NCBI RefSeq assembly: GCF_900446255.1
Contig: NZ_UIGI01000001.1
Span: forward strand, 4,304,763-4,368,762
Length of the DNA stretch: 64,000 nucleotides
Source: Buttiauxella agrestis
GTDB taxonomy: Bacteria; Pseudomonadota; Gammaproteobacteria; Enterobacterales; Enterobacteriaceae
Reading direction: 5' to 3'
Of the stretch, positions 33,965 to 48,226 are shown one piece after another. The translations under genes were made by a program, and so were the position numbers. The notes beneath the pieces are model-generated. The model had not been told where the DNA came from. It was given only the letters and a program-made list of their open reading frames with translations, and searched no databases. How positions within the stretch are numbered: the first letter of the stretch is position 1; each line of letters starts with the position of its first letter.

Positions 33965-35875
33965 TTAAAACCGACTCAAACAATCCATTGCCACCGCTTT
34001 AAACTCGTCAAAACTCCTGCTGTCCCGCAAGCGCGGCATCGCCCGTTCACGCAGAAAAGTCACAAACAAATCGTAAATTGCCATCGCCTCTTCGTACTCA
34101 CTTTTGCTGATAGCAAGCAGGAAGATGACGTGCGCCGTTTCGTCGCCCCAGGCGATCCCCTGAGGGGCAAGAACGGTATACACCACGGTTTTGTTGGCCA
34201 TGAGTCCCAGTGAGTGCGGGAGCGCAATCCCCTCGCCCAACACCGTACTGACAATGGCCTCGCGCTCAACGACTGACGGATAAAAGTCCGCACCGACAAA
34301 CCCTTCCTGCTCAAGTTGCTGGCACAACGAGCTGAACAACTCCTGCTGTGTGACAGGCTCATCAATCACTCGGAAGTGGCTGGCATCAAAGAATTTTTCC
34401 AGCATGTACGGGCGGGTTCTGTCCACCAGCACCAGCTTGCCAAGCTGTTCGAGCTGATACTCCGTTGGGAACGGGGCGACGACCACCGTCGGTTTTTGTT
34501 TATCCGTTACGCGCGCCGTGGAAATCACAAAATCTTCTTCAACACAGTCGAGCTGTTCGTAATCGCGCAACGAGATAATCCGCGTCACTTCAATTTGCGG
34601 GTATTTACGCAGCAGCATCGCCTGAATCATACGCACCGTGGAATTGCCGGTGTCGCATACCAGTAGCACACGCGGATGGCGCTGATAACCAATGTTGTAA
34701 TGCCGCTCCAGCCCCACACCAATATGCAGCACCAGAAAACCAATTTCGTTTTCGCTGATGACATAAGGGGTGTATTTCCCCCAGCTCGACACCGCCGCCA
34801 GCGTCATGTCATAGGCCATCGGATAGTGCTGTTTAATGTTGTCGAGCAGCGGATTCGGAATGTTTATCTGATACCGCACCCGGGTGATCATGGTTTTAAT
34901 ATGGGTAAGCAAATCAGCGTGCAACTGCTTATCGGTCAATAAGTTGTAGTTATAGTTGCTGTTGATAAAGCTCAGAATGTAATTCACCAGCGCTTCGTCA
35001 TCGTCGGCACTGATGGCGCTCGGGGCCACATCCTGAACCTGGCGCGAGGCGATATGCACTTGCAGCCATTGTTCTTCCGCTTCCGAAAGCGGCTTATCGG
35101 CAAGTTTCTGAATCAACACCGTAATTTCGCGTGCGGCTTCACGTACGGCTTCGTCCACATTGTCGGCGCTAAATTCCGGTAGCGGATAACCTTCGCTGAT
35201 ACGGCGCACAGCCACGGCGCAATACAACCGGATAAACTGCTCGCCCTCGTCCGTCAGACGAATGCGGCAGCGCGTAAAGCAGTTGTGTAATTCCGCCGCC
35301 AGTTGCTCTGGCACGCCAGCATTCAGCGCTTCTTCAGTCAGCAGCGGGTTATCGCTATCTTCCTGAGTCAGTTGCCAAAGTAGTTCCGTCAGGCAGGCAC
35401 GCACCGACATTTCGCTGCCAAACAATTTCATGCCGTGACGCGGGCGGGTTTCAATCGTCAGGTTGTAACGCGCCAGCCATTCACGCACTTCTGCCATATC
35501 GCTTTGCAAGGTAGCGCGGCTGACAAACCACTCTTCCGCCAGCTCTTCGAGTTTTAATGAGAAGGCAGATGTCAGAAAGCGCACCACTAAATAATGGACG
35601 CGTTCCGGAGAATTACGTGGGATCCGCAACTGGCGCGAAGGCTGCTGCACCAGCTCCTGATAGAGCGAGCTGTCGGCAATATTGAGCTGATACCCCGCAC
35701 CACGACTGAGCACGAACTGCGCACCATGCCCGGCCATCAATGCGTTTAGAGCAGTAATATCCGCGCGCACCGTGCGGGTAGAAACCGATAAGCGCCGCGC
35801 CAGTTCATCCTGGGGCAGCGTTTCGTTTTGCAGCATTTCAAACAACTGGGCCAGACGTTGGTTTGGGAATCTCAC
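33965..35875 (-). CDS. PRD-containing transcriptional regulator with EIIB- and EIIA-like domains
   Basis: A 636-residue MtlR/LicR-type regulator. Domains in order: HTH (1-65), Mga-like HTH (85-165), PRD1 (about 185-285), PRD2 (295-400), GatB-like EIIB with Cys407 in Leu-Val-Cys-Asp-Thr-Gly-Asn-Ser-Thr, and fructose/mannitol-type EIIA (495-636) with His554 in Ala-Leu-Pro-His-Ser. PRD2 keeps its His residues (325, 384) and PRD1 keeps His274, but at the first PRD1 position the sequence reads Leu-Tyr-Cys-Ala where a His is usual. It is the last gene of the DUF4310 operon, 15 bases after the lactonase gene. It probably activates that operon in response to PTS phosphorylation. Confidence 0.88.
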   Translation of the reverse strand: MRFPNQRLAQLFEMLQNETLPQDELARRLSVSTRTVRADITALNALMAGHGAQFVLSRGAGYQLNIADSSLYQELVQQPSRQLRIPRNSPERVHYLVVRFLTSAFSLKLEELAEEWFVSRATLQSDMAEVREWLARYNLTIETRPRHGMKLFGSEMSVRACLTELLWQLTQEDSDNPLLTEEALNAGVPEQLAAELHNCFTRCRIRLTDEGEQFIRLYCAVAVRRISEGYPLPEFSADNVDEAVREAAREITVLIQKLADKPLSEAEEQWLQVHIASRQVQDVAPSAISADDDEALVNYILSFINSNYNYNLLTDKQLHADLLTHIKTMITRVRYQINIPNPLLDNIKQHYPMAYDMTLAAVSSWGKYTPYVISENEIGFLVLHIGVGLERHYNIGYQRHPRVLLVCDTGNSTVRMIQAMLLRKYPQIEVTRIISLRDYEQLDCVEEDFVISTARVTDKQKPTVVVAPFPTEYQLEQLGKLVLVDRTRPYMLEKFFDASHFRVIDEPVTQQELFSSLCQQLEQEGFVGADFYPSVVEREAIVSTVLGEGIALPHSLGLMANKTVVYTVLAPQGIAWGDETAHVIFLLAISKSEYEEAMAIYDLFVTFLRERAMPRLRDSRSFDEFKAVAMDCLSRF

Positions 35876-35890: not shown

Positions 35891-36997
35891 TTAATCGGGC
35901 GTGATGCCTGTCATCACCATCTGTGACGGACTTCCCACCGCAATATAATCCTCAACAAAAGTCAGTTTTCCATTGCCGTGCGCCACACTAAAACGAGTGA
36001 TGTTGTCACTGCGCTGATTCATGACGTACAGATACTTTTCATTATGGTCGAGGGTGAGCGTGCGTGGGTAATCTCCCCGCGTCCAGACATGTTCCTGAAG
36101 CACCAGCTTGCCGTTCGCGGCGACGGTAAAATGGCCAATGCTGTTGTGTAAACGGTTAGCGATGTATAGCTGTTTTCCGTCTTTACTCAGCATTAAACCC
36201 GAAGCATAACTGGTGCCTTTGAAGCCTTCGGGCAGCGAAGAAATGCTTTCGCCTTCGGTCAATGTTCCCAGGTTTTCATCAACCTGGTAATACGTCAGCG
36301 TGGAAGCCTCTTCGTTGATCAGCCACAAACCCTCACCGCCTGGCGTAAACACAAAGTGGCGAGGCCCGGCACCTTTTGAAGAAGCATCAATATAAGGAGG
36401 ATCGTTAGGCACGAGCTTGCCGTGAGCTTCGTCGAAACGATATTGATAGATTCGATCCAGACCCAGATCGGTAGTAAAAACGTATTTTCCCGTGGGATCG
36501 GCGGCGATCATATGAGCGTGCGCACTGCTGTGGCCGCTGGCAGCAAAACTGCCTTCTACGGCGGCTTCCGGCTTTTTAGCTCCCGCTGGCCCTGAATCTT
36601 GTTGAATATCAGTGGCCTCACCGAGGCTGCCGTCGGCTCTCACGGGCAACACAGCAACGGAACCGCTGCCGTAATTGGCCACCAACAGATAGCACCCATC
36701 CGGCGTGAGTGTGAGATAAACCGCCCCCGAGCCGCCCGATGAAACCTGATTCAGCTCGGTAAGATTACCGTCATCCCCCACACGCAACGCTGCAACAATG
36801 CCTTGTTCTGCTTCGCTTGCCACATACAACGTTTTGCCATTTTTAGCGGCGGTTAGCTGCGCGGCATTGGGCAATTCGCAAACTAACGTTTTGTGGGTCA
36901 GCGCACCGGTTTCGGCATCGACCAGGAATCGGTACAGGCCTTCTCCGTTGGGATGGTAAGTGCCAATCCAGGCATACTGCGGCCTTGTTGCAGACAT
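35891..36997 (-). CDS. Lactonase-family seven-bladed beta-propeller protein
   Basis: A 368-residue protein of the 6-phosphogluconolactonase (Pgl/YbhE) beta-propeller family without a signal peptide, so cytoplasmic. Repeating Tyr-Val-Ala/Leu-Val-Ala-Asn blade motifs occur, and Ser-Ala-His-Ala-His-Met and Gly-Pro-Arg-His-Phe-Val-Phe, which carry family active-site residues, are intact. In this operon it could open a sugar-acid lactone before or after the ammonia lyase. It is placed between the KDGP aldolase and the regulator. The true substrate is unknown, and it is a homologue rather than the housekeeping pgl. Confidence 0.82.
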   Translation of the reverse strand: MSATRPQYAWIGTYHPNGEGLYRFLVDAETGALTHKTLVCELPNAAQLTAAKNGKTLYVASEAEQGIVAALRVGDDGNLTELNQVSSGGSGAVYLTLTPDGCYLLVANYGSGSVAVLPVRADGSLGEATDIQQDSGPAGAKKPEAAVEGSFAASGHSSAHAHMIAADPTGKYVFTTDLGLDRIYQYRFDEAHGKLVPNDPPYIDASSKGAGPRHFVFTPGGEGLWLINEEASTLTYYQVDENLGTLTEGESISSLPEGFKGTSYASGLMLSKDGKQLYIANRLHNSIGHFTVAANGKLVLQEHVWTRGDYPRTLTLDHNEKYLYVMNQRSDNITRFSVAHGNGKLTFVEDYIAVGSPSQMVMTGITPD

Positions 36998-37030: not shown

Positions 37031-37771
37031 TCAGCCGACCAGGTTTCTGGTCATTTCCAGCAAAGTGCGCACATCTTGCGGACGCGTATTGCCGCTCGCT
37101 TTATCAATAATTGAACTGTAAATATGCGGAATCACTTTGCTTACGCCCGCATCCAGTGCGATTTTCAGAATTTCTTCGTAGTTCTCAAGGTCAATTCCGC
37201 CGGTTGGCTCGAGCCAAAAATCATACTTCGCGCAAGCTTTCGCTACCGCTTCATATTCATCACGGCATTGCAGCCCGCCCATCGGGAAATATTTGACTGA
37301 GCTGCCGCCCATATCTTTGAGTAACTTAATCGCGGTTTCGACAGGTACGATGCCGTCTGGCGCGCCAGAACTCAACGGGCCGGTGGAAATTTTCACCATG
37401 CCGACCGTGCCGGTTGGGGAAATCAGGCCGTTGACCACACTTTCATTTTGCCCAAGCAGCGCACGACTGGTTCCCACGCCGGTAAATACCTGGTTTACAT
37501 GCTGCGGTTGCACCTCGCGGGAGATTTCACTCACCATTGCCGATTGATTCGGGTCGCCTGCACCAAGGCCAACAGAGAGCGCATTTTCGATCAACGCCGC
37601 ATATTCGCGCATATCCGCAACAGCACTGGCGACATCCGGGTAATTTTTGGAAAGCACGCCCACCAGCACATGTCCTTCGGCAGCATCATAAATGGCTTTA
37701 GCATTCTCTTTGGAACCCGCCAGCACGTTCAGGCAAACACGATCGCGGTAAAAGTTCGGGGTCAATTTCAT
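37031..37771 (-). CDS. KDGP aldolase family protein (DgaF-like)
   Basis: A 246-residue protein matching the 2-dehydro-3-deoxyphosphogluconate aldolase type found in the Salmonella D-glucosaminate operon as DgaF. It would split KDGP into pyruvate and glyceraldehyde 3-phosphate. The conserved Gly-Gly-Leu-Gln-Cys, Glu-Pro-Thr-Gly-Gly-Ile-Asp and His-Ile-Tyr-Ser-Ser-Ile-Ile-Asp motifs are visible. Its start overlaps the end of the DgaE-like gene by four bases, so the two steps are tightly coupled. A gene symbol is withheld because the pathway here is not proven to be glucosaminate. Confidence 0.85.
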   Translation of the reverse strand: MKLTPNFYRDRVCLNVLAGSKENAKAIYDAAEGHVLVGVLSKNYPDVASAVADMREYAALIENALSVGLGAGDPNQSAMVSEISREVQPQHVNQVFTGVGTSRALLGQNESVVNGLISPTGTVGMVKISTGPLSSGAPDGIVPVETAIKLLKDMGGSSVKYFPMGGLQCRDEYEAVAKACAKYDFWLEPTGGIDLENYEEILKIALDAGVSKVIPHIYSSIIDKASGNTRPQDVRTLLEMTRNLVG

Positions 37772-38886
37772 GCCTGTTTCTCCTTGCTGACTAACGCGTT
37801 AATGCTGTGATAAATAATCTCTAGCTGCTGCGGGCTTACGCTGCGCACATCGGCTTCGATAATCCCTTCGTTAGCTTTGTAACCACGGAAGAAAATCGCA
37901 TACTCGCCTTGTTTCAGCGCGCTGACTAACTCTACGGTGCTGGTGCCAATCACCGCTTCATCGAACTTAATTTCAGTACGCGCGATATCACGACCGGCGG
38001 CATCCCACACGACGCGGGCGCTGATACCCTCAATCGTATTGAGATTAGCGATAAACGGCGTCATTTTTTCCACCATCTGTTCACCGCTCTCTTTTTCCGC
38101 ACTCAGATAATGTTCGATGGCGCAGGTCAGGCCAAGAATGCCTTCTTTACCGACTTTCATGGCGCGTCCAATGCCGCTGGTTTGCAGTTTCACCCACTCG
38201 ACGTACTGCGCTTTGCCGATCACCAGACCGCTGGTTGGCCCTTCAATCGCTTTTGCGCCGCTGTAAATCACCAGGTCCGCACCTGCGCGGTAGTAACACT
38301 GCAAATCTTCTTCAGCCGCAGCATCAACAATTAACGGCAGGTTATGCTTGCGGGCCACGACCGCCGCCTGCTCAACGCTAAGCATGCTTTTCTGCACCGA
38401 GTGGTGAGATTTGATATACAGAATGGCCGCCGTGCGCGGGGAAATCGCCGCAGCCAGTTGATCGGCGGAACATTCGTTGGCGTAACCGGCTTCAACCACT
38501 TTGCCGCCACCGAGATAAACCATGGTGCCCACGGGTGCGCCAAAGTTCACGTTGTGGCCTTTTGGCAACACAATTTCATTGTTCTCAAGCGGGGTGCCAT
38601 GCAGGTTTTCAATCAGCCACGCGTTGTCTTTCACCAGCACCGCCGCCACCGATTGTGCGATACCCGCAGAAGCACAGGACACTACCGTCGCCGCTTCCAC
38701 ATCCAGCAATTTTGCGATGTATTCCCCAGTTTTGTTCACCAGGTCTTTCATTTCAAAGTAGTGATTCATGCCGTTCGTCACGGCATCCACCACTTCCGGG
38801 CGCGGAGTAGAAACACCGAGTGCCGTCATGCGGCCAGATGCGTTAATGACTTGTTTTAAATTGTATTTTTCATAAATCGAAGACAT
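37768..38886 (-). CDS. PLP-dependent ammonia lyase (DgaE-like)
   Basis: A 372-residue SelA/DgaE-type fold-I enzyme. The PLP lysine is Lys212 in Ile-Tyr-Ser-Gly-Ala-Lys-Ala-Ile-Glu-Gly-Pro-Thr-Ser-Gly. In Salmonella DgaE turns D-glucosaminate 6-phosphate into KDGP and ammonia. The ATG at 38886 gives the family N-terminus Ser-Ile-Tyr-Glu-Lys-Tyr; the longer frame to 39018 would run deep into the amidohydrolase gene. The start lies 17 bases inside the end of that gene. The next gene encodes the matching aldolase. Confidence 0.88.
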   Translation of the reverse strand: MSSIYEKYNLKQVINASGRMTALGVSTPRPEVVDAVTNGMNHYFEMKDLVNKTGEYIAKLLDVEAATVVSCASAGIAQSVAAVLVKDNAWLIENLHGTPLENNEIVLPKGHNVNFGAPVGTMVYLGGGKVVEAGYANECSADQLAAAISPRTAAILYIKSHHSVQKSMLSVEQAAVVARKHNLPLIVDAAAEEDLQCYYRAGADLVIYSGAKAIEGPTSGLVIGKAQYVEWVKLQTSGIGRAMKVGKEGILGLTCAIEHYLSAEKESGEQMVEKMTPFIANLNTIEGISARVVWDAAGRDIARTEIKFDEAVIGTSTVELVSALKQGEYAIFFRGYKANEGIIEADVRSVSPQQLEIIYHSINALVSKEKQA

Positions 38887-40051: not shown

Positions 40052-40696
40052 CTACAAAGCAATCGGGAAGAAAGCGCCAAATAGCATCGCGCCAAGAATT
40101 GCGCCGCCGGTAATCGGTTTGTTCCACAGGTAAAACAGCAGCGAACCAATCAAGGAGCCGATACCAATTGGAATCGAGGCGGCCATCGCGCTGAGGATAA
40201 TTAACGGGCCAAGGAAGCGGCCGGATGCGTTACCCGCGCCCATCATCACGTCAGCACCGTAAGTAGAGTTGCTTTGGTTGATGGTGAATTTACGCGCAAG
40301 AATGATCAGATAACCAATCGCCAGGCCAATCACCAATCCAGTTGCTAAAGAAGCGGCGAAGTTAGCGACCGGGAAGATAATCCCGGCGCCCAGCAACAGC
40401 GCAGGAACGCCAAGCCCGACACCGGTTTGAATCGCCCCGCCGATGTCCAGAATCCCGACCAGCGAACCTTCAATGATGCGGGCAAACAGGAAGCTGGCAC
40501 CAAATGCTGCGACTGCGCCATACACGCCGGTGTCGATTCCGGCACGCAGCATGGAAACAAACGCTACTTCGTTAAATGCGCCGATTCCGTAGAGGTAATA
40601 CATGTGTGTCCCGGCGAACACGCCGGATGAAAGCAGGCCAACAAAAATCGGGAAAGACCAGTCGGCGTACCAAAAACCTTTATTCTCTTCCATCAT
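40052..40696 (-). CDS. DUF4310 family membrane protein
   Basis: A 214-residue very hydrophobic inner-membrane protein with about six membrane helices, a short polar N-terminus (Glu-Glu-Asn-Lys) and many small residues (Gly-Val-Gly-Leu-Gly-Val-Pro-Ala-Leu-Leu-Leu-Gly-Ala-Gly). It belongs to DUF4310, always found with DUF4311, DUF4312 and SFCGS proteins to my knowledge. No function is established. The Gly-rich helices and pairing with DUF4311 suggest one half of a transporter, in the place of a PTS EIIC or EIID. It starts 8 bases after the DUF4311 gene. Confidence 0.83.
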   Translation of the reverse strand: MMEENKGFWYADWSFPIFVGLLSSGVFAGTHMYYLYGIGAFNEVAFVSMLRAGIDTGVYGAVAAFGASFLFARIIEGSLVGILDIGGAIQTGVGLGVPALLLGAGIIFPVANFAASLATGLVIGLAIGYLIILARKFTINQSNSTYGADVMMGAGNASGRFLGPLIILSAMAASIPIGIGSLIGSLLFYLWNKPITGGAILGAMLFGAFFPIAL

Positions 40697-40704
40697 TGGC
40701 TCCC

Positions 40705-41481
40705 TTATTTTCCGCTCAGCGAGTTATGAATCAGATCCAGCCAGTTCGGCACGGTCAGATGGAAAGATTCGATCATCTTCATGTCGAAGCCACGGAAGAA
40801 ACCACTCAGGACAAACAGCGCGATAATCGCGACCATCATCACTTTAGTGACATGGTTCCAGCCGCTCTCTTCCACACCTTTACCAATCAGGATGCCCAGC
40901 ACCAAACCCGGTACGGCGTTACCCATAATCAGCTGCGCGCAGCCGCCGAAAATCGTCGCCCAGAAGCCCGATTTCTTACCGGCATCAATCGCCGCCAGCC
41001 AGAAAATCACTGGCATGATGATGTTAACCAGCAGGTTAGCGGCAGGCACCAGAACTTTTACCGCCGTGACCTGCAATGCAGCCGGAACCGCAGAAGCCGT
41101 GGTGTTAAGGAAGGCGACCACAATCATGCCGATGATGCCGCAGGCGATAGCCATCTTTCTCGGATCGTGCAGGGTTTCGGCGACGTTACGGTTTTTCACC
41201 ATCAACGCGGCAGCACCCCAGTTTGGGATAATGCGGTGGTCAACATCTTGTGTGAACGCCCCTGCTGCAACCGAGGATGCCCATGCGTTAAAGAAGAAGC
41301 CCAGACCAAATGAGAAGTGTGAAGCCGGATCGCCTTCGCAGGAATTTAGCTCACCGAGAGTACGAAAAGCGCCCATCCCTTGAGTGGTAGGCGCGTGAAA
41401 CATACGTGCAGCCCCGGCGCCAACTCCAACGCCCACCAGACCGCCGATGATTAGCGATTTTATTAATATAATTAAGAACAT
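40705..41481 (-). CDS. DUF4311 family membrane protein
   Basis: A 258-residue inner-membrane protein with six to seven hydrophobic segments. It begins with an uncleaved helix (Ile-Ile-Leu-Ile-Lys-Ser-Leu-Ile-Ile-Gly-Gly) followed by a Gly-Val-Gly-Val-Gly-Ala-Gly-Ala-Ala-Arg stretch. An Ala-Pro-Thr-Thr-Gln-Gly-Met-Gly-Ala-Phe-Arg-Thr loop and a Pro-Ala-Ala-Asn-Leu-Leu-Val-Asn segment look functional. It has no characterised homologue known to me. It is paired with DUF4310 downstream and lies 23 bases after DUF4312. Confidence 0.83.
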   Translation of the reverse strand: MFLIILIKSLIIGGLVGVGVGAGAARMFHAPTTQGMGAFRTLGELNSCEGDPASHFSFGLGFFFNAWASSVAAGAFTQDVDHRIIPNWGAAALMVKNRNVAETLHDPRKMAIACGIIGMIVVAFLNTTASAVPAALQVTAVKVLVPAANLLVNIIMPVIFWLAAIDAGKKSGFWATIFGGCAQLIMGNAVPGLVLGILIGKGVEESGWNHVTKVMMVAIIALFVLSGFFRGFDMKMIESFHLTVPNWLDLIHNSLSGK

Positions 41482-41504
41482 CTGTCTGTCCTTTCTGTGT
41501 GATT

Positions 41505-41807
41505 TTATTGGGGAATGAAATCGACTTTGTCCATGTTGATTGCCGTAACATTGACTGAAACATCCAGCTCCACGCTGAACATTTGTTTTTCACGCTTCAG
41601 GAAGAAGAACAAAAACGCTTCTTTCTTAACCTGGACTCGCGCCTGAATAACCTGCACATCCTGTGGCTCAATGCGCAGTAAAATGTGGGGAGAAGATTTC
41701 ATCACCGAGCCCTGAACATGATTCAGGGCGTCAGCAAAGGCTTTGGCTTTGGTATCGCCGCGCCCTTTCACTCTCACCGTTTCTGAGAAGTGTTCTTTCA
41801 TACTCAC
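41505..41807 (-). CDS. DUF4312 family small soluble protein
   Basis: A 100-residue soluble protein with alternating strand-like segments (Ile-Leu-Leu-Arg-Ile-Glu-Pro and Phe-Ser-Val-Glu-Leu-Asp-Val-Ser-Val) and basic turns. Two His residues (Leu-Asn-His-Val-Gln and Ser-Pro-His-Ile-Leu) are the only candidates if it carries a phosphate. The start at 41807 overlaps the SFCGS gene stop (ATGA); a second in-frame ATG lies two codons on. Its role is unknown. It would be the second soluble partner in a four-protein module with SFCGS, DUF4311 and DUF4310. Confidence 0.8.
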   Translation of the reverse strand: MSMKEHFSETVRVKGRGDTKAKAFADALNHVQGSVMKSSPHILLRIEPQDVQVIQARVQVKKEAFLFFFLKREKQMFSVELDVSVNVTAINMDKVDFIPQ

Positions 41808-42166
41808 TGACCGTACTTCTTGGCCCAGGCCTGCACCAGACGCTCGCCCAGCTCTTCTTTATCCATAAAACCAAAGCCCAGAACGTTATTGCCTTCGTTA
41901 ATTGCGGTCACGCCTTCATCCACTGAACGCATGCCGTACTTGGCTTTGTAACCGTGTTTGGTTTGTGCGGTGATAGCACCTGCGCCACCGCTGCCGCAGA
42001 AAGAGATACCAAACGTGGCGTTTTCTGCTTTCATCACGTCGCCCAGTTTCATATCAGCGGCAACACCAGGAATCACCACGGCACGACCGCCCGCTTTCTC
42101 AATCCCTGCTGCCACTTTCTGGCCTTTGCCCAGACGATCGCCAATCACTACGGTAATTTGTTCCAT
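41804..42166 (-). CDS. SFCGS family glycine-rich protein
   Basis: A 120-residue soluble protein named for the motif Ser-Phe-Cys-Gly-Ser (Cys57), set between a strand and a Gly-Gly-Ala-Gly-Ala loop. This resembles a phosphate-binding loop after a strand and invites comparison with Cys-phosphorylated EIIB proteins. That comparison is an inference. The start at 42166 follows AGGAG at ideal distance and gives Met-Glu-Gln-Ile-Thr-Val-Val-Ile-Gly-Asp; a longer frame to 42187 overlaps the PRD gene. It is coupled to DUF4312 by an ATGA overlap. Confidence 0.83.
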   Translation of the reverse strand: MEQITVVIGDRLGKGQKVAAGIEKAGGRAVVIPGVAADMKLGDVMKAENATFGISFCGSGGAGAITAQTKHGYKAKYGMRSVDEGVTAINEGNNVLGFGFMDKEELGERLVQAWAKKYGQ

Positions 42167-42183: not shown

Positions 42184-42501
42184 TCAAAGATTGTCTTTCG
42201 CGACTTCAAAATGCACCGACAATAGCCACGCCTCTTCAACGGGGAGATTGCCAAACTGTTCCACCACTTCTTTCGCCATCACCAGCGAGTCATCAGAGAT
42301 TTCCTCAAACAGACTCTCTTCAACTTCTGGCAGCGGTTCGCCGGTCAATGACCGATGAGCCATGGCACGAACGTGGGATGTCAGCATCTGTTCCTGCACC
42401 GCGTTCGGCGTGATGTTTCTGTTCATAAGCAGCGTATTGATAAACGCCAACACGCGTTGCGTGAGTCGCGTTTCCTCGGTACACCCGGCTTCATTAACCA
42501 T
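42184..42501 (-). CDS. Stand-alone PRD-domain protein
   Basis: A 105-residue protein consisting of a single PTS regulation domain with no DNA-binding part. The two histidines expected to be phosphorylated are visible: His43 in Leu-Thr-Ser-His-Val-Arg-Ala-Met-Ala-His-Arg and His97 in Leu-Leu-Ser-Val-His-Phe-Glu. I choose the ATG at 42501 because GGAG lies upstream at proper distance; an ATG at 42519 is possible. It is the first gene of the operon and may sense PTS phosphate and modulate the large PRD regulator encoded at the operon's far end. Confidence 0.75.
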   Translation of the reverse strand: MVNEAGCTEETRLTQRVLAFINTLLMNRNITPNAVQEQMLTSHVRAMAHRSLTGEPLPEVEESLFEEISDDSLVMAKEVVEQFGNLPVEEAWLLSVHFEVAKDNL

Positions 42502-42586
42502 TACCGCTCCGTCATTCACACTACGACCCTCTTCGCTGTCAGGCTTTTAAGGTATCGGGCAGGGTTAAAGGTTTGTAGCGAGTTGT

Positions 42587-42606
42587 TTTCCACTTCGAAG
42601 TGGAAA
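42587..42606. promoter_or_regulatory. Perfect 20-base palindrome upstream of the DUF4310 operon
   Basis: The two ten-base halves (TTTCCACTTC and its exact complement) meet at 42596/42597 without a gap, 86 bases before the first gene. It is the obvious candidate operator for the PRD/EIIB/EIIA regulator. Confidence 0.65.
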
Positions 42607-42668
42607 TCGCGGCTTCAATAGTGATTTGCGCCACAAAAAAGGGCTGAATCGTGATGATTGGCTGGTTT

Positions 42669-42688
42669 AGTGTGATTACAGTCACGCA
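42669..42688. promoter_or_regulatory. CRP-like site upstream of the DUF4310 operon
   Basis: TGTGA at 42671-42675, a six-base spacer and TCACG at 42682-42686 match the CRP consensus with one mismatch. The site lies about 170 bases before the operon start and 65 bases behind the palindrome, consistent with catabolite-controlled activation. Confidence 0.6.
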
Positions 42689-42699
42689 TTAGCAATGCT

Positions 42700-43003
42700 T
42701 AAGTGAGAGTTCTCAGTGATAGTTTTTGAGCAAATTTGTGAGCCAGGGGGTGTTTTGGGGGAAATATTGGAAAGGCTTATGGTTGGGGATAGTTTAGGAC
42801 TGAGATACCCGGGGCGACCACCAGGTTTGGCGTCCCTCCGGGAACCAAATCCCGGCGTTTCCCCTAATTCATTGGCTTTAGTGAATGATGTTAGCCAGGG
42901 CAAGGGGGGGATTTATGGCGGCACTAGAACAGCTTTTATTAGGGGGCAGTCGCCTAAGTGCCTGGAGTGGACATTGCTGACATGGTAATCGCCACCAATA
43001 ATC
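42700..43003. other. G-rich stretch without a recognised gene
   Basis: About 300 bases between the operon control region and the DUF2971 gene hold several G-runs and a CCGGGA/TCCCGG hairpin near 42836-42855. Frames are open on both strands (for example rightward 42716-42988, 90 codons, GTG start), but the Gly/Pro-rich translation and weak ribosome sites do not support a protein. It may be a remnant of an integrated element or a structured RNA. Confidence 0.3.
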
Positions 43004-43786
43004 TCAATCCCCTATGTGGTTACGTTCCATCGCTCTTAAAACCTTCTCTGCAGAATCAAATATATCCATTCTCTGCATATCATGCGGGTATTTGGTGTAT
43101 TCATAACCCTCTATGGCGAGATCCCATGTACTTTTCTTAAATTCACACTGATATAACTGCACTGTATTGTTTAAAATTAATGCTTCTAATGTACTGTTAT
43201 TTCTAATAATTTCATCAATGCCCTTGTTGTTGATCCCGATATAGATACCTGTTACCGATTTTAGATCAACTATTTTATCAATTAATACAGTGTCTTGCTT
43301 TTGTAATGATTCCGTCTTTTTTATTATTCTGATTTCTTCTTCATATTTCCAATGCAATGATTTAGTAAGCAATAATTTACTAATCATATCAGTGTCATAG
43401 ATATTTTCTTGACTGATCTTTAGTTTGCTTTCTATTCGACTCCCTAAATAATCAATTTCACCTTTCGGAGCTGTAATCAGGCATTTTGCTTCATCATCGT
43501 ATCCTGCCTTCTCAGTATCGATTGCTACAACAAAACCCTGATGCTTATCTGCATAATGTGACCACATCAATACGTTGAGTGGTTCTTTAGAAAGGCATAA
43601 GCAGGCAAGGTTTTGATTGATTTCATATCTCATAGTTAATGATTCAATTGATTCATCATCAAGTGCATATCCATAACTTTCGAAAGGATCATTAAACTCA
43701 CTGTGTGGGGTGAACTTTATAGAGATGTAGCCATCTTTGAAGAATCGATCTAATGATGCATTGTCTATGTATTTGTACAAAATCAT
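43004..43786 (-). CDS. DUF2971 family protein, low GC
   Basis: A 260-residue soluble protein. It has the DUF2971 pattern: Tyr-Lys-Tyr near the start, Phe-Asn-Asp-Pro-Phe-Glu-Ser near residue 35, Cys-Leu-Cys-Leu-Ser followed by Met-Trp-Ser-His-Tyr-Ala-Asp near residue 75, and Lys-Ser-Leu-His-Trp-Lys-Tyr-Glu-Glu-Glu-Ile-Arg near 145. The gene is far richer in A and T than its surroundings (roughly one third GC by eye), a sign of transfer. DUF2971 genes are common in accessory and defence-rich regions, but their activity is unknown. The start at 43786 is inferred from the family; no good ribosome site is seen. Confidence 0.75.
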   Translation of the reverse strand: MILYKYIDNASLDRFFKDGYISIKFTPHSEFNDPFESYGYALDDESIESLTMRYEINQNLACLCLSKEPLNVLMWSHYADKHQGFVVAIDTEKAGYDDEAKCLITAPKGEIDYLGSRIESKLKISQENIYDTDMISKLLLTKSLHWKYEEEIRIIKKTESLQKQDTVLIDKIVDLKSVTGIYIGINNKGIDEIIRNNSTLEALILNNTVQLYQCEFKKSTWDLAIEGYEYTKYPHDMQRMDIFDSAEKVLRAMERNHIGD

Positions 43787-44403
43787 AAAATACTCAGAAT
43801 CATTTATAGGTGTTATCAGTGTACAGCCTTTCGACAGGCTAGGTGTAAGTACCCCGCTTAAACGACCCATTCTCTTTTAGAGTTTGAAATACGCCCTCGG
43901 TGGTCGGAACAATTTCGTACTTCCGCTCCTCGCTCAAAGCAGGCCATCAAAATTAACACTAGCTATTTTCTACCCTGCTGCGCAAAGCGTATGAACTTAT
44001 CCCCTTTAGAATTACGTCGTAGCGGGTGAGTTCATTGATTCAGTACCACCCACTTTTCGTGTTTCACTCAGATCCGGAAGACGCCTCGCAATCCTATAAC
44101 CCCAGCAGTGACAGGTAGTTAAACGTTGCGGTATTATGCGTGCGCTGCGGCACATCCGCAGTCGGGAATTGCAGCCCGGAGTACTGGAAGCAAAGAATAC
44201 GCTTGATGCCTATTCTTTGTTGCGCTTTGCCACATCCGTCAAAAATCAGATTCTCGGGATTAGACGTTCAATGGTGGCTCAGGCGGGGCTGACTTCGGTC
44301 AGGCCGGTTTCCAGTATCCCGGTACTGCAATCCCTTCCTGGGCTACCACCAATAAGAGAATTGCAGCTCTGGTGGTAGCGATATGCTAGAACTGGAGATG
44401 CAA
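43787..44403. other. Non-coding or decayed region, possible P4-type remnant
   Basis: About 600 bases carry no solid gene. Rightward at 44136-44378 an 80-codon frame contains Arg-Ser-Met-Val-Ala-Gln-Ala-Gly, a phrase I associate with Ash/Icd-type proteins of P4-like elements, but it lacks the rest of the family and a ribosome site. The left part (43860-44130) shows nothing I recognise. Confidence 0.3.
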
Positions 44404-44487
44404 ATGAAAAGAATTTCACACAGCCCCACTTTCCTGCCCTTCCTCACGGCTTCCCGCACATTAGCTGTATGCGGAGGCAAAAAATGA
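44404..44487 (+). CDS. 27-residue leader-type ORF coupled to the Ner-like gene
   Basis: A short frame with GGAG exactly six bases before its ATG; it encodes Met-Lys-Arg-Ile-Ser-His-Ser-Pro and ends in Cys-Gly-Gly-Lys-Lys. Its TGA overlaps the ATG of the Ner-like gene (ATGA), and the GGAGG of that gene lies inside its last codons. This arrangement fits a translated leader controlling the regulator. The frame is open to an earlier ATG at 44383. The peptide is not known to me. Confidence 0.4.
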   Translation: MKRISHSPTFLPFLTASRTLAVCGGKK

Positions 44488-44741
44488 CAACGCCTTCCGA
44501 CTGGCATAAAGCCGATATTATTGCCGCGCTTCATAAGAAAGGTACTTCGCTGGCTGCACTTTCGCGCGAAGCAAATCTGGCTTCCTCAACACTCGCGAAT
44601 GCACTGACTCGTCCGTGGGCAAGAGGTGAATTAATGATTGCACGAGCGCTAGAGTTACCCGCTTCTCAAATCTGGCCGAGCCGTTATTTTGATGAAAAAG
44701 ACAGAGAGTTGAAAAGAGTGATGAGAAAACCGGTTAACTGA
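44484..44741 (+). CDS. Ner/Nlp-like DNA-binding protein
   Basis: An 85-residue winged helix-turn-helix protein of the phage Mu Ner/Nlp (SfsB) family. Family marks are Asp-Trp-His-Lys-Ala-Asp-Ile-Ile-Ala-Ala-Leu near the start, Leu-Ala-Ala-Leu-Ser-Arg-Glu-Ala-Asn-Leu-Ala as the recognition unit, Thr-Leu-Ala-Asn-Ala-Leu, and Ile-Trp-Pro-Ser-Arg-Tyr near residue 68. The ATG at 44484 follows GGAGG with six bases between; an ATG at 44469 is worse. Ner proteins repress early phage genes, so this is likely phage-derived. Its targets are unknown. Confidence 0.85.
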   Translation: MTTPSDWHKADIIAALHKKGTSLAALSREANLASSTLANALTRPWARGELMIARALELPASQIWPSRYFDEKDRELKRVMRKPVN

Positions 44742-44756
44742 GTCGTCGCATCAATT

Positions 44757-44785
44757 GGCGGGTGCGCTTCGCTTACCCGCCCTAC
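44757..44785. repeat. REP-type palindrome (family B) after the Ner-like gene
   Basis: A GGCGGGTGCGCTTCGC...TTACCCGCC unit sits between the Ner-like gene and the toxin remnant. It is the same family as at 10761-10828 and 15875-15905. Confidence 0.75.
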
Positions 44786-44810
44786 GAAATAATCGATCTG
44801 AGAGTTTCAT

Positions 44811-44983
44811 ATGGCTACTTTTGAAATTGAGAAATGAAAAAAATTGTCGGGGGCATTACTTGCCAAACTGCGAGTCACACATCGTTTATCCGACGATAAC
44901 CGAAAAGCACTAAAGATAATCTGACTGATGCGGAAAAAGCAGATCTCAAGAAATTGACGAAAATACTGAAAAACGAGGTGTGA
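44811..44983 (+). pseudogene. Decayed RelE/HigB-like toxin gene
   Basis: The remnant begins ATG with Met-Ala-Thr-Phe-Glu-Ile-Glu-Lys and then stops; the end, in another frame, reads Asp-Asn-Leu-Thr-Asp-Ala-Glu-Lys-Ala-Asp-Leu-Lys-Lys-Leu and stops at 44981-44983, one base before the antitoxin ATG. Both ends resemble the start and the C-terminal helix of RelE-type toxins of the NadS/HigA-partner group. The middle, with the catalytic strands, is missing. This points to an internal deletion plus frameshift; the product cannot be a working toxin. Confidence 0.5.
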
Positions 44984-44984
44984 T

Positions 44985-45269
44985 ATGAGCTTTTTTGACG
45001 ACCTGAAAACGTCCCTTGAAGAAGCGGTCGACATTAAAAATGGCGTTCAATCTCCCACCCGTGTTACCCGCTATGAGATTGCTGATGTCAAAGCAATCAG
45101 GGAACAGTTGAATGTTTCACAGAGCGAAATGGCCAGGGCACTGGGTACTAGCATTGATACCATAAAAAGCTGGGAGTCAGGGAGACGTAACCCAACCGGG
45201 CTTGCTGCAAAGGTGCTGGCAACCATCCAGGCTAACCCTGCTTTCTTCCAGGAATTAGCTGCGCATTAG
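44985..45269 (+). CDS. NadS/HigA-like XRE-family antitoxin
   Basis: A 94-residue helix-turn-helix protein. Residues 33-90 carry the XRE domain with Ile-Arg-Glu-Gln-Leu-Asn-Val-Ser-Gln-Ser-Glu-Met-Ala, then Lys-Ser-Trp-Glu-Ser-Gly-Arg-Arg-Asn-Pro-Thr-Gly, the classical NadS/YiaG-type motif. GAGGTG precedes the ATG. It stands immediately behind the decayed toxin, in the toxin-first order of HigBA-type pairs. As an orphan it can no longer act as an antitoxin here, but may remain a regulator. Confidence 0.82.
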   Translation: MSFFDDLKTSLEEAVDIKNGVQSPTRVTRYEIADVKAIREQLNVSQSEMARALGTSIDTIKSWESGRRNPTGLAAKVLATIQANPAFFQELAAH

Positions 45270-45273
45270 TGAT

Positions 45274-45294
45274 GAGCGGGGATAATCCCCGCTC
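45274..45294. other. Hairpin between the antitoxin gene and dctM
   Basis: A perfect nine-pair GC-rich stem (GAGCGGGGA with TCCCCGCTC) and three-base loop lie between convergent genes. No T-run follows on either strand, so it is a possible weak or Rho-assisted transcript end. Confidence 0.55.
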
Positions 45295-45302
45295 TACTTC
45301 CC

Positions 45303-46610
45303 TTACTTCACCAGCCCCATACTCTGTGGCAGTGCCATGGTGATAGCCGGTAAATACGTCACCATCATCAGAACAATCGCAATCACCGCAAAGAATGGCA
45401 GCAACGGTTTAATGACGCGCTCAATTTTAATATCCCCGACTTTACAACCGGTAAATAAGATTGGCCCCACCGGCGGCGTTATCGTGCCGAGCGATAAGTT
45501 GAACACCATCATAATACCGAAATGCACCGGGTCCATTCCAAACTGCATACAGATTGGCAGGAAGATTGGGGTGAAGATTAATACCGCAGGCGTTGGGTCC
45601 ATAAAGGTGCCGACCACCAGCAATACCAGATTCATAATCAGCAAAATAACAATAAAGCTATCGGTAGCAGAAAGTAAACCAGAGGCAATCAGTGCCGGTA
45701 TTTTGGTGAAGGCCATAACCCACGACATAATAGAAGATGCCGCCAGCATGAAGATAACAATCGCGGTCATTTTCGCCGTGGCGAGGAATATCTTCGGCAA
45801 ATCGTCAATTTTAATGTTGCGATAAATAATGCCGAGTACCAGGGAATAAACGACCGCAATCGCCGATGCTTCCGTTGCCGTAAATACGCCACCCAGAATA
45901 CCGCCGATAACAACGACAATCATCATCAGGCTTGGAATAGCATCAAACAAAATACGCAGCGTCTGGCCTTTATTTGCCGAACGGTCGGCCACATAGCCAC
46001 GGCGTTTTGCAATAAATCCGGCGACCAGCATGACGCCCAGGCCCCACAGAATACCCGGCACATAACCGGCCATAAACAGCGCGGAAATAGACACGCTACC
46101 CGCCACCGTTGCGTAAACAATCAAAGAGTTGCTTGGCGGAATCAGCATGCCTGTTGGTGCAGAAGCGATATTCACCGCCGCGCTGAACGCCGGGTCGTAC
46201 TGCTCTTTTTTCTGAATCGGCGACATGATGCCACCGACCGCGGCAGCCGATGCCACACCAGAACCGCTGATCGAGCCAAACAGCATATTGGCAACAACGT
46301 TAGTTTGCGCCAGTGGGCCGGGCAAGAAATTACTGACCATTTTGGCGCAGTTAATTAAACGAATGGCGATCCCGCCATTATTCATTAAATTCCCCGCCAG
46401 TATAAAGAAGGGAATGGCTAATAAAGCAAAGGAGTCGAGGCCAACAAAGACGCGCTGTGCCGACGTTAATATCGCACCATCGAAAGGTAAGATAAGTAAC
46501 ATTGCGGCAAAAGAAGAAATCCCGATGCTGATACTAATTGGCGTGCCCGCCAGCAGTAAAATAAACACACCGCTAAACATTACAAGAGCAACAATAATTG
46601 CAATATCCAT
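45303..46610 (-). CDS. dctM: TRAP transporter large permease DctM
   Basis: A 435-residue DctM-type permease of a tripartite ATP-independent periplasmic (TRAP) transporter with about twelve helices. It has the family's early Gly-Thr-Pro-Ile-Ser-Ile-Ser-Ile-Gly motif (near residue 24) and the C-terminal Thr-Pro-Pro-Val-Gly segment of the sodium-binding region. The ATG at 46610 is preferred over a TTG four codons earlier. It lies 12 bases after dctQ and completes the dctP-dctQ-dctM order. It carries the solute with sodium symport after delivery by DctP. Confidence 0.92.
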   Translation of the reverse strand: MDIAIIVALVMFSGVFILLLAGTPISISIGISSFAAMLLILPFDGAILTSAQRVFVGLDSFALLAIPFFILAGNLMNNGGIAIRLINCAKMVSNFLPGPLAQTNVVANMLFGSISGSGVASAAAVGGIMSPIQKKEQYDPAFSAAVNIASAPTGMLIPPSNSLIVYATVAGSVSISALFMAGYVPGILWGLGVMLVAGFIAKRRGYVADRSANKGQTLRILFDAIPSLMMIVVVIGGILGGVFTATEASAIAVVYSLVLGIIYRNIKIDDLPKIFLATAKMTAIVIFMLAASSIMSWVMAFTKIPALIASGLLSATDSFIVILLIMNLVLLVVGTFMDPTPAVLIFTPIFLPICMQFGMDPVHFGIMMVFNLSLGTITPPVGPILFTGCKVGDIKIERVIKPLLPFFAVIAIVLMMVTYLPAITMALPQSMGLVK

Positions 46611-46622
46611 ATCAACACCCAA

Positions 46623-47165
46623 TCAATCTTGTTTCGAAGAGAACTTTCTGAACAGCCCATATTGGTTATACAGGCAATAGAACAGCGTCATTGCACCACT
46701 TAGAGGAATTGCAATGTAGATAATGCCGATTGGAATTTGTAATGCGGAATCGAGCTGCGCCATCTGGCGGCTCATCCCGATATAACCCCCGATAGTTAGC
46801 ACCAGCAAGGCAAATACAGAGGTGGCAAGCTCGCCGATGATTTCCAGCGAAAGGCGTAATTTGCGCGGCAATTTATCGCGCATAAAAGTGATAGCCATAT
46901 GCTCGCGCAGACCGAAAACATACGCTCCGCCAATCAGCACCAGCCAGATAAACAAATAACGCGCCAGCACTTCGCTGACCGCACTTGGGCTATTTAATAA
47001 ATAACGGGAAGCAACCTGCCAGGTCACCAGCAGCGTCATTAATCCCACAATTAAAATACATAGATATGACGCCACTTTATCAACGGCCTGTTTCACTCGG
47101 GTGATATGCGAATAAAAATCAGATTTGGATACGGCGGCGGAGGGGGCGGTTTGCGTCACTTTCAT
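46623..47165 (-). CDS. dctQ: TRAP transporter small permease DctQ
   Basis: A 180-residue inner-membrane protein with four helices and the DctQ motif Tyr-Leu-Phe-Ile-Trp-Leu-Val-Leu-Ile-Gly-Gly-Ala near residue 80. The ATG at 47165 is chosen because GGAG lies six bases upstream; ATG 47168 and GTG 47177 are in frame. It supports the large permease and mediates contact with the binding protein. It lies 47 bases after dctP. Confidence 0.88.
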   Translation of the reverse strand: MKVTQTAPSAAVSKSDFYSHITRVKQAVDKVASYLCILIVGLMTLLVTWQVASRYLLNSPSAVSEVLARYLFIWLVLIGGAYVFGLREHMAITFMRDKLPRKLRLSLEIIGELATSVFALLVLTIGGYIGMSRQMAQLDSALQIPIGIIYIAIPLSGAMTLFYCLYNQYGLFRKFSSKQD

Positions 47166-47212
47166 CATATTCTCCACAGGGGGCCAGAAAGCCCCCTGGT
47201 TACTAAGCCGAG

Positions 47213-48226
47213 TTACTCGGCCAACTCACGAATTTTTTCGTACAACGCTTTTTGTTCCGGCGTAGTCAACATGGCAGATTGCAGCGGTTTGCAACGTTCC
47301 TGGAATGGCTTGATATCCACTTCAGTGAAGGTCGCGCCGTTGTCTTTCGCGGTTTGACGTGCGCCATCGAGCGCTTTATCCCACAGCTCAAACTGAGTCT
47401 GGGTACTCTCTTTGGCTAATTTGCGGAACAGCTCGCGGTCGCCTTCATCCATTTTGGCGAGGAAACTTTCGTTAGCGACGAGCAGGTCGGCCACCATCAC
47501 GTGGCGAGTGGTGGAGAAGTAAGGCGCCACTTCGTACTGTTTCAGGTCGGCGTAGGTGATTTCATTGTTTTCAGCACCGTCTAATACGCCCTGCTGAATC
47601 GCTGAGTAGACTTCACCCTGACCCATCGGTACGCCCGTTCCGCCCATGCAACTCAGCATTTTGATCATCGTGTCAGACTGCATGACACGGATTTTCTTGC
47701 CATTCATGTCAGCCGGACTTTTGACGGCGGCACCTTTGGTGTACACGCTGCGCGCACCGGCGGTATACGCAGTGACGACTTCAAAACCGGTTCCTTTGGT
47801 GGACGCAAACAGGCTGTCTAGCACGCCAGACGTAAACACTTTGCGCTGATGTTCCGGGTTGTCGTACACGTACGGCATGGCCAGAACCGAGAAGTTTTTA
47901 TTGAAGTTTTCCACCAGCGGGTTAGCCACAACCGCCATCTGAATCGCACCAGACTGAACCAGTTCAAGTGAAGCACGCTGGTCGCCCAACAGTTCATTGG
48001 GGTGGATTTCTAATTTGTAACGACCATTGGTCGCCGCTTCCAGCTTATCGCTGAAGGAAACTAACGCTTTGTATTGTGGGTTATTTTCAGATTGGTTAAA
48101 CGCGGTTTTTAGGGTAACGGTGCCTGTTGGAGCAGCGTCATCGCCACATCCGCTCAGCAAAATCGTTGCAGCAACAGCGGTAGCAACCAGCGAAATTTTT
48201 GGCAAAACATGTTTCAAATGCAGCAT
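47213..48226 (-). CDS. dctP: TRAP transporter substrate-binding lipoprotein DctP
   Basis: A 337-residue DctP-family binding protein. The N-terminus has a lipobox (Leu-Ser-Gly-Cys, Cys27) rather than the usual signal peptidase I site, so it is probably membrane-anchored. The ligand-binding core includes Lys-Ile-Arg-Val-Met-Gln near residue 180 and Gln-Gly-Val-Leu-Asp-Gly-Ala-Glu-Asn-Asn near 220; the family's Arg in the first motif binds carboxylates. A dicarboxylate or malonate-like substrate fits the mdc operon next door but is inferred. It is divergent from the LysR gene mdcR. Confidence 0.9.
   Translation of the reverse strand: MLHLKHVLPKISLVATAVAATILLSGCGDDAAPTGTVTLKTAFNQSENNPQYKALVSFSDKLEAATNGRYKLEIHPNELLGDQRASLELVQSGAIQMAVVANPLVENFNKNFSVLAMPYVYDNPEHQRKVFTSGVLDSLFASTKGTGFEVVTAYTAGARSVYTKGAAVKSPADMNGKKIRVMQSDTMIKMLSCMGGTGVPMGQGEVYSAIQQGVLDGAENNEITYADLKQYEVAPYFSTTRHVMVADLLVANESFLAKMDEGDRELFRKLAKESTQTQFELWDKALDGARQTAKDNGATFTEVDIKPFQERCKPLQSAMLTTPEQKALYEKIRELAE

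Follow-up and report, generated by a model that had tools for sequence, protein, structure and literature searches.

A DUF4310/DUF4311/DUF4312/SFCGS operon of Buttiauxella agrestis as a candidate for a new type of phosphorylating sugar-acid importer

In Buttiauxella agrestis, a stretch of 64,000 nucleotides (NZ_UIGI01000001.1, positions 4,304,763 to 4,368,762; hereafter the window) carries four adjacent genes for SFCGS, DUF4312, DUF4311 and DUF4310 proteins (hereafter the module) in an operon that also encodes a DgaE-family ammonia lyase and an aldolase. The best single explanation for the module, resting on genomic context and residue conservation, is that it is a permease like an enzyme II of the phosphotransferase system (PTS), which would bring in a sugar acid by HPr-dependent group translocation; we give this reading a probability of roughly 0.58. 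That the module is a transporter is well supported by context, and its likeliest substrate is an N-acylated amino-sugar acid of the glucosaminate type. PTS-like import had been proposed in a sequence-only reading of this DNA; the context fits that proposal, and its assignment of EIIA and EIIB parts is replaced here by a stand-alone PRD protein and an SFCGS subunit with a predicted RpiB fold. The genes of the operon, in their order and in window coordinates, are:

42184–42519, minus strand: stand-alone PRD protein (TIGR03582), 111 aa, GTG start; E 2.8e-38
41804–42166, minus strand: SFCGS protein (TIGR03577/PF14272), 120 aa, predicted RpiB fold
41505–41807, minus strand: DUF4312 protein (TIGR03578/PF14189), small soluble subunit
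40705–41481, minus strand: DUF4311 membrane protein (TIGR03580/PF14188), 258 aa
40052–40696, minus strand: DUF4310 membrane protein (TIGR03579/PF14187), 214 aa
38870–40003, minus strand: amidohydrolase/deacetylase-family metallohydrolase (TIGR03583, EF_0837 family); E 1.4e-169
37768–38886, minus strand: DgaE-family pyridoxal phosphate (PLP) ammonia lyase (TIGR01437), 372 aa; E 1.9e-181
37031–37771, minus strand: aldolase of the KDGP/KDPG (2-keto-3-deoxy-6-phosphogluconate) type (TIGR03581, DgaF family); E 2.6e-123
35891–36997, minus strand: beta-propeller lactonase (PF10282); E 3.5e-97
33965–35875, minus strand: PTS-controlled regulator, 636 aa, with HTH_11, Mga, two PRDs and an EIIA_2 domain

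The four module open reading frames (ORFs) stand in the tight order first described, and each of their proteins exceeds the cut-offs of its own curated TIGR and Pfam families. The gaps between SFCGS, DUF4312, DUF4311 and DUF4310 are 2, 23 and 8 bp. DUF4312 is 98 aa long from an inner ATG at 41801, or 100 aa from a GTG, a start that replaces the 2-bp gap with a 4-bp overlap with SFCGS. The membrane pair is strongly hydrophobic, with grand averages of hydropathy of 1.06 and 0.78. The operon is larger than first described: the leading PRD gene (42519–42184) had been overlooked, a lactonase and a PRD/EIIA regulator stand behind the aldolase, and the lyase and aldolase that had been placed behind the module are indeed there, with the amidohydrolase intervening between DUF4310 and the DgaE-like lyase. 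The families of the module are already catalogued. Most operon genes carry NCBIfam names of hypothetical families, after E. faecalis EF_0829 to EF_0839 and Aeromonas AHA_3910 to AHA_3917, and the literature searched showed no paper that gives these families a function, judging from titles and abstract openings.

The module and known phosphorylating importers replace one another beside DgaE. A sample of 149 genomes from one family, that of the nearest genome, G001 (presumably the Enterobacteriaceae), holds 80 DgaE copies above the family cut-off, in 69 genomes. A genome-neighbourhood survey, as the sequence-only reading had proposed, placed 69 of these copies within 6 kb of an SFCGS gene. All 11 others stand directly behind ManX/ManY/ManZ-like genes, and a recognised aldolase follows nine of them; the idea that the module takes the place of a mannose-family PTS is thereby borne out. 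SFCGS occurs in 70 of the 149 genomes, of which one, G319, is without DgaE. There, SFCGS and DUF4312 alone were found (L168 8731–9554), in an apparently decayed operon.

Among 299 Bacillota genomes, DgaE exceeds the cut-off in ten, the copies L183 and L184 lying under it and being excluded from the neighbour classes. The neighbours are the module in five (G448, G723, G744, G526 and G630); ManX- and ManZ-like genes, with no ManY label, in G768; and EIIC with MupG-like and PfkB-kinase genes in G432 and G537. G493 and G576 have a PfkB-type kinase beside DgaE (loci L175 and L177), and a scan of three ORFs next to each copy showed no transporter. Of three more DgaE copies, in G429 and G430, two adjoin EIIC/MupG/kinase genes and one a mannose PTS. 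A gene of the HAD sugar-phosphatase type lies behind the aldolase at L178, L179 and L182, out of five Bacillota loci that have the module. The kinase-containing arrangement (L033 11548–18263; L174, L185, L187 and L176) combines DgaE and aldolase with a PTS EIIC, a PfkB-type kinase and a MupG-like protein of the 6-phospho-N-acetylmuramidase family, and in the E. faecalis group it forms one run with the DUF module. At L175 (3343–10281), an oxidoreductase, two TIM-barrel isomerase-like proteins and an amidohydrolase accompany DgaE, aldolase and PfkB kinase.

The gene order of the operon is far above chance and nearly fixed across Bacilli and Proteobacteria. Searching genome contigs with an alignment of DUF4311 gave 499 confirmed stretches. 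The best 80 of these by resemblance to the E. faecalis protein were taken as loci; Bacilli are over-represented among them because of this ranking. BLAST in the 80 loci found DUF4311 in 80, DUF4310 in 80, SFCGS in 78, DUF4312 in 75, amidohydrolase in 75, DgaE in 75, the regulator in 72, the PRD gene in 70 and the aldolase in 69, with several of the loci truncated at contig ends. The regulator or the amidohydrolase takes the first place at some loci. Five loci are without DgaE: L052 and L069 end shortly behind the module, and L045, L046 and L048, where the module stands apart, were followed and have DgaE elsewhere in the genome (3/3). Where module, lyase and aldolase occur together (69 loci), BLAST with the E. 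faecalis proteins matched no PfkB kinase in 53, and kinase, EIIC and MupG were all unmatched in 49. In 274 genomes sampled across the class, DUF4311 exceeds its cut-off in one, G001. A weak PF14188 match in that genome (L002), which overlaps on the same strand a protein that we take from its sequence to be of the DnaJ type, was dropped. A megablast of the operon against 20,395 E. coli records gave no match, and no relatives of the module were found in viral contigs.

Residue conservation was read from alignments of divergent members, which besides the window hold 38 of 78 DUF4311, 36 of 78 DUF4310, 22 of 74 SFCGS, 41 of 73 DUF4312 and 37 of 69 PRD sequences. Among the soluble parts, the invariant His and Cys residues are Cys57 of SFCGS and His49 and His103 of the PRD protein, and no others. 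Cys57 is present in 23 of 23 divergent members and in at least 97% of 108; its absence across the family had been named beforehand as a point that would count against PTS-like import.

According to the fold search, a confident predicted model of SFCGS matches ribose-5-phosphate isomerase B (RpiB) and LacAB, with 108–119 of the 120 residues aligned in 22 matches. In RpiB, the catalytic Cys sits in a Cys-Gly-Thr-Gly loop, and the enzyme has a ring-opening His and a phosphate-binding C-terminal tail. The Cys57-Gly-Ser-Gly of SFCGS aligns with the Cys-Gly-Thr-Gly of E. coli RpiB, which puts Cys57 at the place of the catalytic Cys. In the same alignment the ring-opening His and the tail have no SFCGS counterpart, and SFCGS ends about 19 aligned residues before E. 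coli RpiB does. The earlier likening of SFCGS to EIIB is not supported, as the model matches RpiB/LacAB instead and no EIIB is among the matches listed. A match to an unrelated complex, which would have spoken against import, was found in part, for the SFCGS subunit only. A PDB sequence search with SFCGS found nothing. Pfam alone gives weak matches to RpiB and DUF2620 (5/23 and 6/23 members, best 0.0037 and 0.012) that are no better than those to unrelated families (DUF1521 7/23, best 0.0072; Cecropin 6/23), and the claimed likeness to RpiB and DUF2620 is therefore carried by the fold and the family profile. SFCGS is proposed to be a Cys-phosphate donor or a substrate-binding subunit.

A parallel to this arrangement is found in the yhf operon of E. 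coli (L117 5936–13345, equal to NC_000913 3504935–3512344), in which YhfY (PRD), YhfU (DUF2620) and YhfT (membrane) are encoded together with other enzymes. The same three occur together in five of the 299 Bacillota genomes searched. In profile comparison, SFCGS resembles the YhfU family with an E-value of 5e-6 and a score of 39.2, the best of 40 column shuffles reaching 20.0, and the PRD protein resembles the YhfY family with an hhalign score of 51.4 against 15.0 in 40 shuffles. When E. coli YhfU is used by itself, its match to SFCGS falls short of significance (E 0.23). The membrane parts gave no such relation: DUF4311 scored 16.5 with YhfT (best shuffle 25.8) and DUF4310 13.7 (24.4), and a single-sequence match of DUF4311 to YhfT (E 0.0028) vanished with the family profile and shuffles. 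An RpiB-like Cys protein and a PRD that accompany two membrane systems and two enzyme sets would be more in keeping with a unit of transport than with an enzyme of the pathway, and the yhf operon could encode another transporter of like design.

The PRD protein at the head of the operon is assigned by its curated family, TIGR03582, in which it scores 130.6 bits (cut-off 69.35); with the Pfam PRD model it reaches 15.1 bits (cut-off 23). Pfam PRD matches at E ≤ 0.1 were found in 35 of 38 members of this lead gene (best 3e-8), and His49 and His103 are invariant in 38 of 38. We propose that it is a His carrier phosphorylated by HPr, or a sensor, and it appears to be the best candidate for an EIIA-like phosphocarrier, though it is no known EIIA. 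The operon's regulator has PRD His325 in 76 of 76 and His384 in 74 of 76 sequences, and His554, which we take to be the usual phosphorylation place of an EIIA_2 domain, in 21 of 76. The 76 are 75 plus the window, here and for DgaE, length filters having removed 8 of 83 regulator and 5 of 80 DgaE ORFs.

Host genomes generally have the PTS components that such a relay would use. Searches of 49 genomes, drawn from those of the 80 loci, detected enzyme I (EI) in 47 and HPr likewise in 47, and EI is present in four of four further hosts; frequent occurrence of the module without them is what the sequence-only reading had named as adverse. More telling are PTS genes at the operon itself, which give stronger support than co-occurrence in the genome. 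On a Bartonella plasmid (L034 8047–10062), an HPr-EI fusion lies directly behind the regulator, and a second Bartonella plasmid (L188 15405–17420) has a gene of equal length, annotated ptsP, in the same place; a sugar PTS is unexpected in this lineage. In G630 (Bacillota), separate HPr and EI genes follow the operon on the same strand, the genome having three EI matches. In Enterococcus ratti, HPr and EI genes stand in front of the operon and may be the general set. HPr and EI active-site motifs were used in reading these last two loci.

The lyase bears on phosphorylation of the substrate. According to PMC9529869, the Salmonella PTS DgaABCD yields glucosaminate-6-phosphate; a manually docked model in that paper has the phosphate close to Arg301, Arg332 and Arg346 of the lyase. 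These correspond to R303, R334 and R348 in the window lyase, each of which, like H162 and K212, is kept in 76 of 76 operon lyases; H161 is kept in 75. The PLP lysine is likewise invariant (76/76), and Arg226 of the carboxylate site corresponds to Lys225 (K in 61/76, R in 11/76). Among the other enzymes, the amidohydrolase (PDB relatives 8wzy and 2ics) probably removes an N-acyl group from the compound brought in, 3m0z is among the PDB relatives of the KDPG-type aldolase, and the lactonase is a probable opener of a sugar-acid lactone. By BLAST, the lactonase was found in one of 116 loci (L035), 32 of the 116 being too short to show it.

From these data we infer the following order of events. 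DUF4311 and DUF4310, proposed as two halves of a putative permease, would form the membrane channel. Phosphate would pass from EI/HPr to His49 and His103 of the PRD protein, from there to Cys57 of the RpiB-fold SFCGS protein, and then to the substrate on its entry. After import, the amidohydrolase would strip the acyl group, the DgaE-type lyase would remove ammonia to give KDPG, and the aldolase would cleave this to pyruvate and glyceraldehyde-3-phosphate. The PRD/EIIA regulator would sense the traffic through the system.

A predicted AlphaFold2 model of DUF4311 has 11 helices, with a pLDDT of 76.7 and a pTM of 0.63. Its 39 aligned members share invariant polar motifs, and 17 of the 39 match DUF2232 in Pfam (best 0.0005). 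The invariant residues of DUF4312 are P46, E61, F63 and R70. No kinship was found between DUF4310 and DUF4311 or between DUF4312 and SFCGS. Weak PDB sequence matches of DUF4310 and DUF4311 were judged to be chance, as were those of DUF4312 to RecA fusions (whole-chain E 2e-6, no single stretch passing).

A number of findings weigh against phosphorylation by the module. No PTS family of Pfam was matched (hmmscan, E ≤ 0.1) in 39 DUF4311, 37 DUF4310, 23 SFCGS or 42 DUF4312 members, and the DUF4311 model matches no solved fold in the fold search; the proposal that the membrane pair corresponds to EIIC and EIID is not supported. The 42 DUF4312 members have no conserved His or Cys and hence no phosphate site, which excludes DUF4312 as an EIIA and, with it, the one-to-one mapping of the four proteins onto EIIA, EIIB, EIIC and EIID. 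The predicted SFCGS fold resembles that of a sugar-phosphate isomerase and not that of a known EIIB, and E. coli YhfY is without the second His, which is kept in five of five Bacillota relatives. The Arg triad of the lyase is kept equally in 25 of 25 other DgaE copies, kinase-linked ones included; it therefore points to a phosphorylated lyase substrate and not to the source of the phosphate, and was set aside as a diagnostic of phosphorylation by the module. A PfkB-type kinase does occur in 16 of the 69 loci, other kinase families or distant kinases not having been sought. Co-occurrence with EI and HPr is weak by itself because each is present in 7 of 14 control genomes. In G460 the module is present and EI, HPr and the PEP-utiliser C-domain were not found in the assembly; in G444, a 1.7-Mb metagenome-assembled genome, HPr and the EI N-domain are without a match and one PEP-utiliser C-domain match was found. 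G460 (AwWohl; L101 14929–15608) has a contig that ends inside the regulator, whose reading frame looks broken, and its operon may be decaying or its assembly incomplete. Finally, the PRD protein and the operon-linked EI/HPr could serve regulation alone, because the regulator is PTS-controlled (its PRD His325 being invariant).

Several of these points would suit an ordinary permease, ion-coupled or other, with SFCGS as a cytosolic RpiB-class enzyme that isomerises or epimerises the sugar acid by way of Cys57, or as a substrate sensor, a kinase elsewhere, and a PRD protein and regulator that merely tie expression to PTS status. Such a system would account for the RpiB/LacAB fold, for Cys57 at the catalytic place in its Cys-Gly-Ser-Gly loop and for membrane parts without detected PTS homology, and PRDs are regulatory domains. 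We nonetheless regard it as unlikely: SFCGS is without counterparts of the ring-opening His and C-terminal tail, 53 of 69 loci are without a PfkB kinase by BLAST, and the exchange with the mannose PTS is exact. Moreover, a PRD and a membrane protein accompany YhfU, a relative of SFCGS, next to quite different enzymes, and YhfU therefore follows the transporter and not one substrate.

A variant keeps the phosphorylating importer and changes its relay, the phosphate of SFCGS coming directly from HPr or from the EIIA_2 domain of the regulator and the stand-alone PRD being purely a sensor. The window regulator does have His554 in its presumed place. Since this residue is kept in 21 of 76 regulators, the EIIA_2 domain cannot be the general donor and was excluded as such; direct transfer from HPr is unaffected by this count, and the variant as a whole seems to us very improbable. 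Slightly further down still is the suggestion that the membrane pair is another machine coupled to the pathway, e.g., an enzyme complex or exporter, for which the missing fold match and the polar invariant motifs of DUF4311, which would suit catalysis too, can be cited, and against which the module replaces a mannose-PTS importer before the lyase (11/11) and, where seen, the aldolase (9/11); 49 of the 69 loci moreover show no match to the E. faecalis-type EIIC, the kinase or MupG, this EIIC being the one other importer part looked for.

Upstream of the operon, the window contains a possible control element:

42588–42605, no strand assigned: perfect 18-bp palindrome TTCCACTTCGAAGTGGAA, exact match, 68 bp upstream of the first gene

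By chance, 0.14 such sites per window are expected when up to three mismatches are allowed. Its core, CCACTTNNAAGTGG, lies 406–479 bp before SFCGS, as in the window, in 16 of 113 SFCGS loci; three further matches, 28–34 bp before SFCGS, were left uncounted and probably belong to the closing codons (HFEV) of the PRD gene. The palindrome is probably an operator of the operon. Between it and a complete tripartite ATP-independent periplasmic (TRAP) transporter (DctM, DctQ, DctP; 45303–48226), which is upstream on the same strand and apparently unrelated, are genes for a DUF2971 protein (43004–43870) and a small helix-turn-helix protein with weak likeness to MqsA (44985–45269). The region 42600–45300 looks like a later insertion, an impression from gene content alone.

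To our knowledge, PTS permeases have been treated as a closed set of families. A group-translocating module would be a new class of phosphorylating importer, found in many Bacilli and in 70 of the 149 genomes that were sampled from one family. It would give functions to at least five families (DUF4310, DUF4311, DUF4312, SFCGS and the stand-alone PRD), and perhaps roles to DUF2620, YhfT and YhfY as well; PRDs would then be phosphocarriers, beyond mere switches. The fuller form of the idea, in which an unrecognised class of PTS-type translocators uses a PRD as its EIIA equivalent and a former RpiB isomerase carrying phosphate on Cys57, with YhfY-YhfU-YhfT as a second branch, is offered tentatively, at somewhat less than even odds.

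The module can be compared with four known systems. With RpiB and LacAB, SFCGS shares the predicted fold over nearly its whole length and the Cys-Gly-[Ser/Thr]-Gly loop; in contrast to them it is shorter, is without counterparts of the ring-opening His and C-terminal tail, and adjoins DgaE in 69 of 70 sampled family genomes. The glucitol PTS (SrlA/SrlE/SrlB) likewise has a membrane part in two pieces and a soluble part of its own, whereas no scanned member matched the SrlA, SrlE or SrlB families, as far as a Pfam scan can tell. The E. coli yhf operon has in common a stand-alone PRD, a small Cys/Gly-rich protein and a membrane protein; however, the latter is a single protein of 434 aa with no detectable relation to DUF4310 or DUF4311, there is no DUF4312-annotated gene, and the enzymes are others, the genes being annotated as uncharacterised or putative. 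Compared with the mannose-family PTS DgaABCD of Salmonella, the four DUF families are without a Pfam match to any PTS family, and the module operon has an added amidohydrolase and an HTH_11/Mga-PRD-EIIA regulator, whereas a protein of 930–960 aa stands alongside the mannose-PTS copies (11/11). The two nevertheless occupy the same place, before a DgaE-type lyase (11/11) and a DgaF-type aldolase (9/11), and the Arg triad of the phosphate site in the D-glucosaminate system is also kept by the operon lyase.

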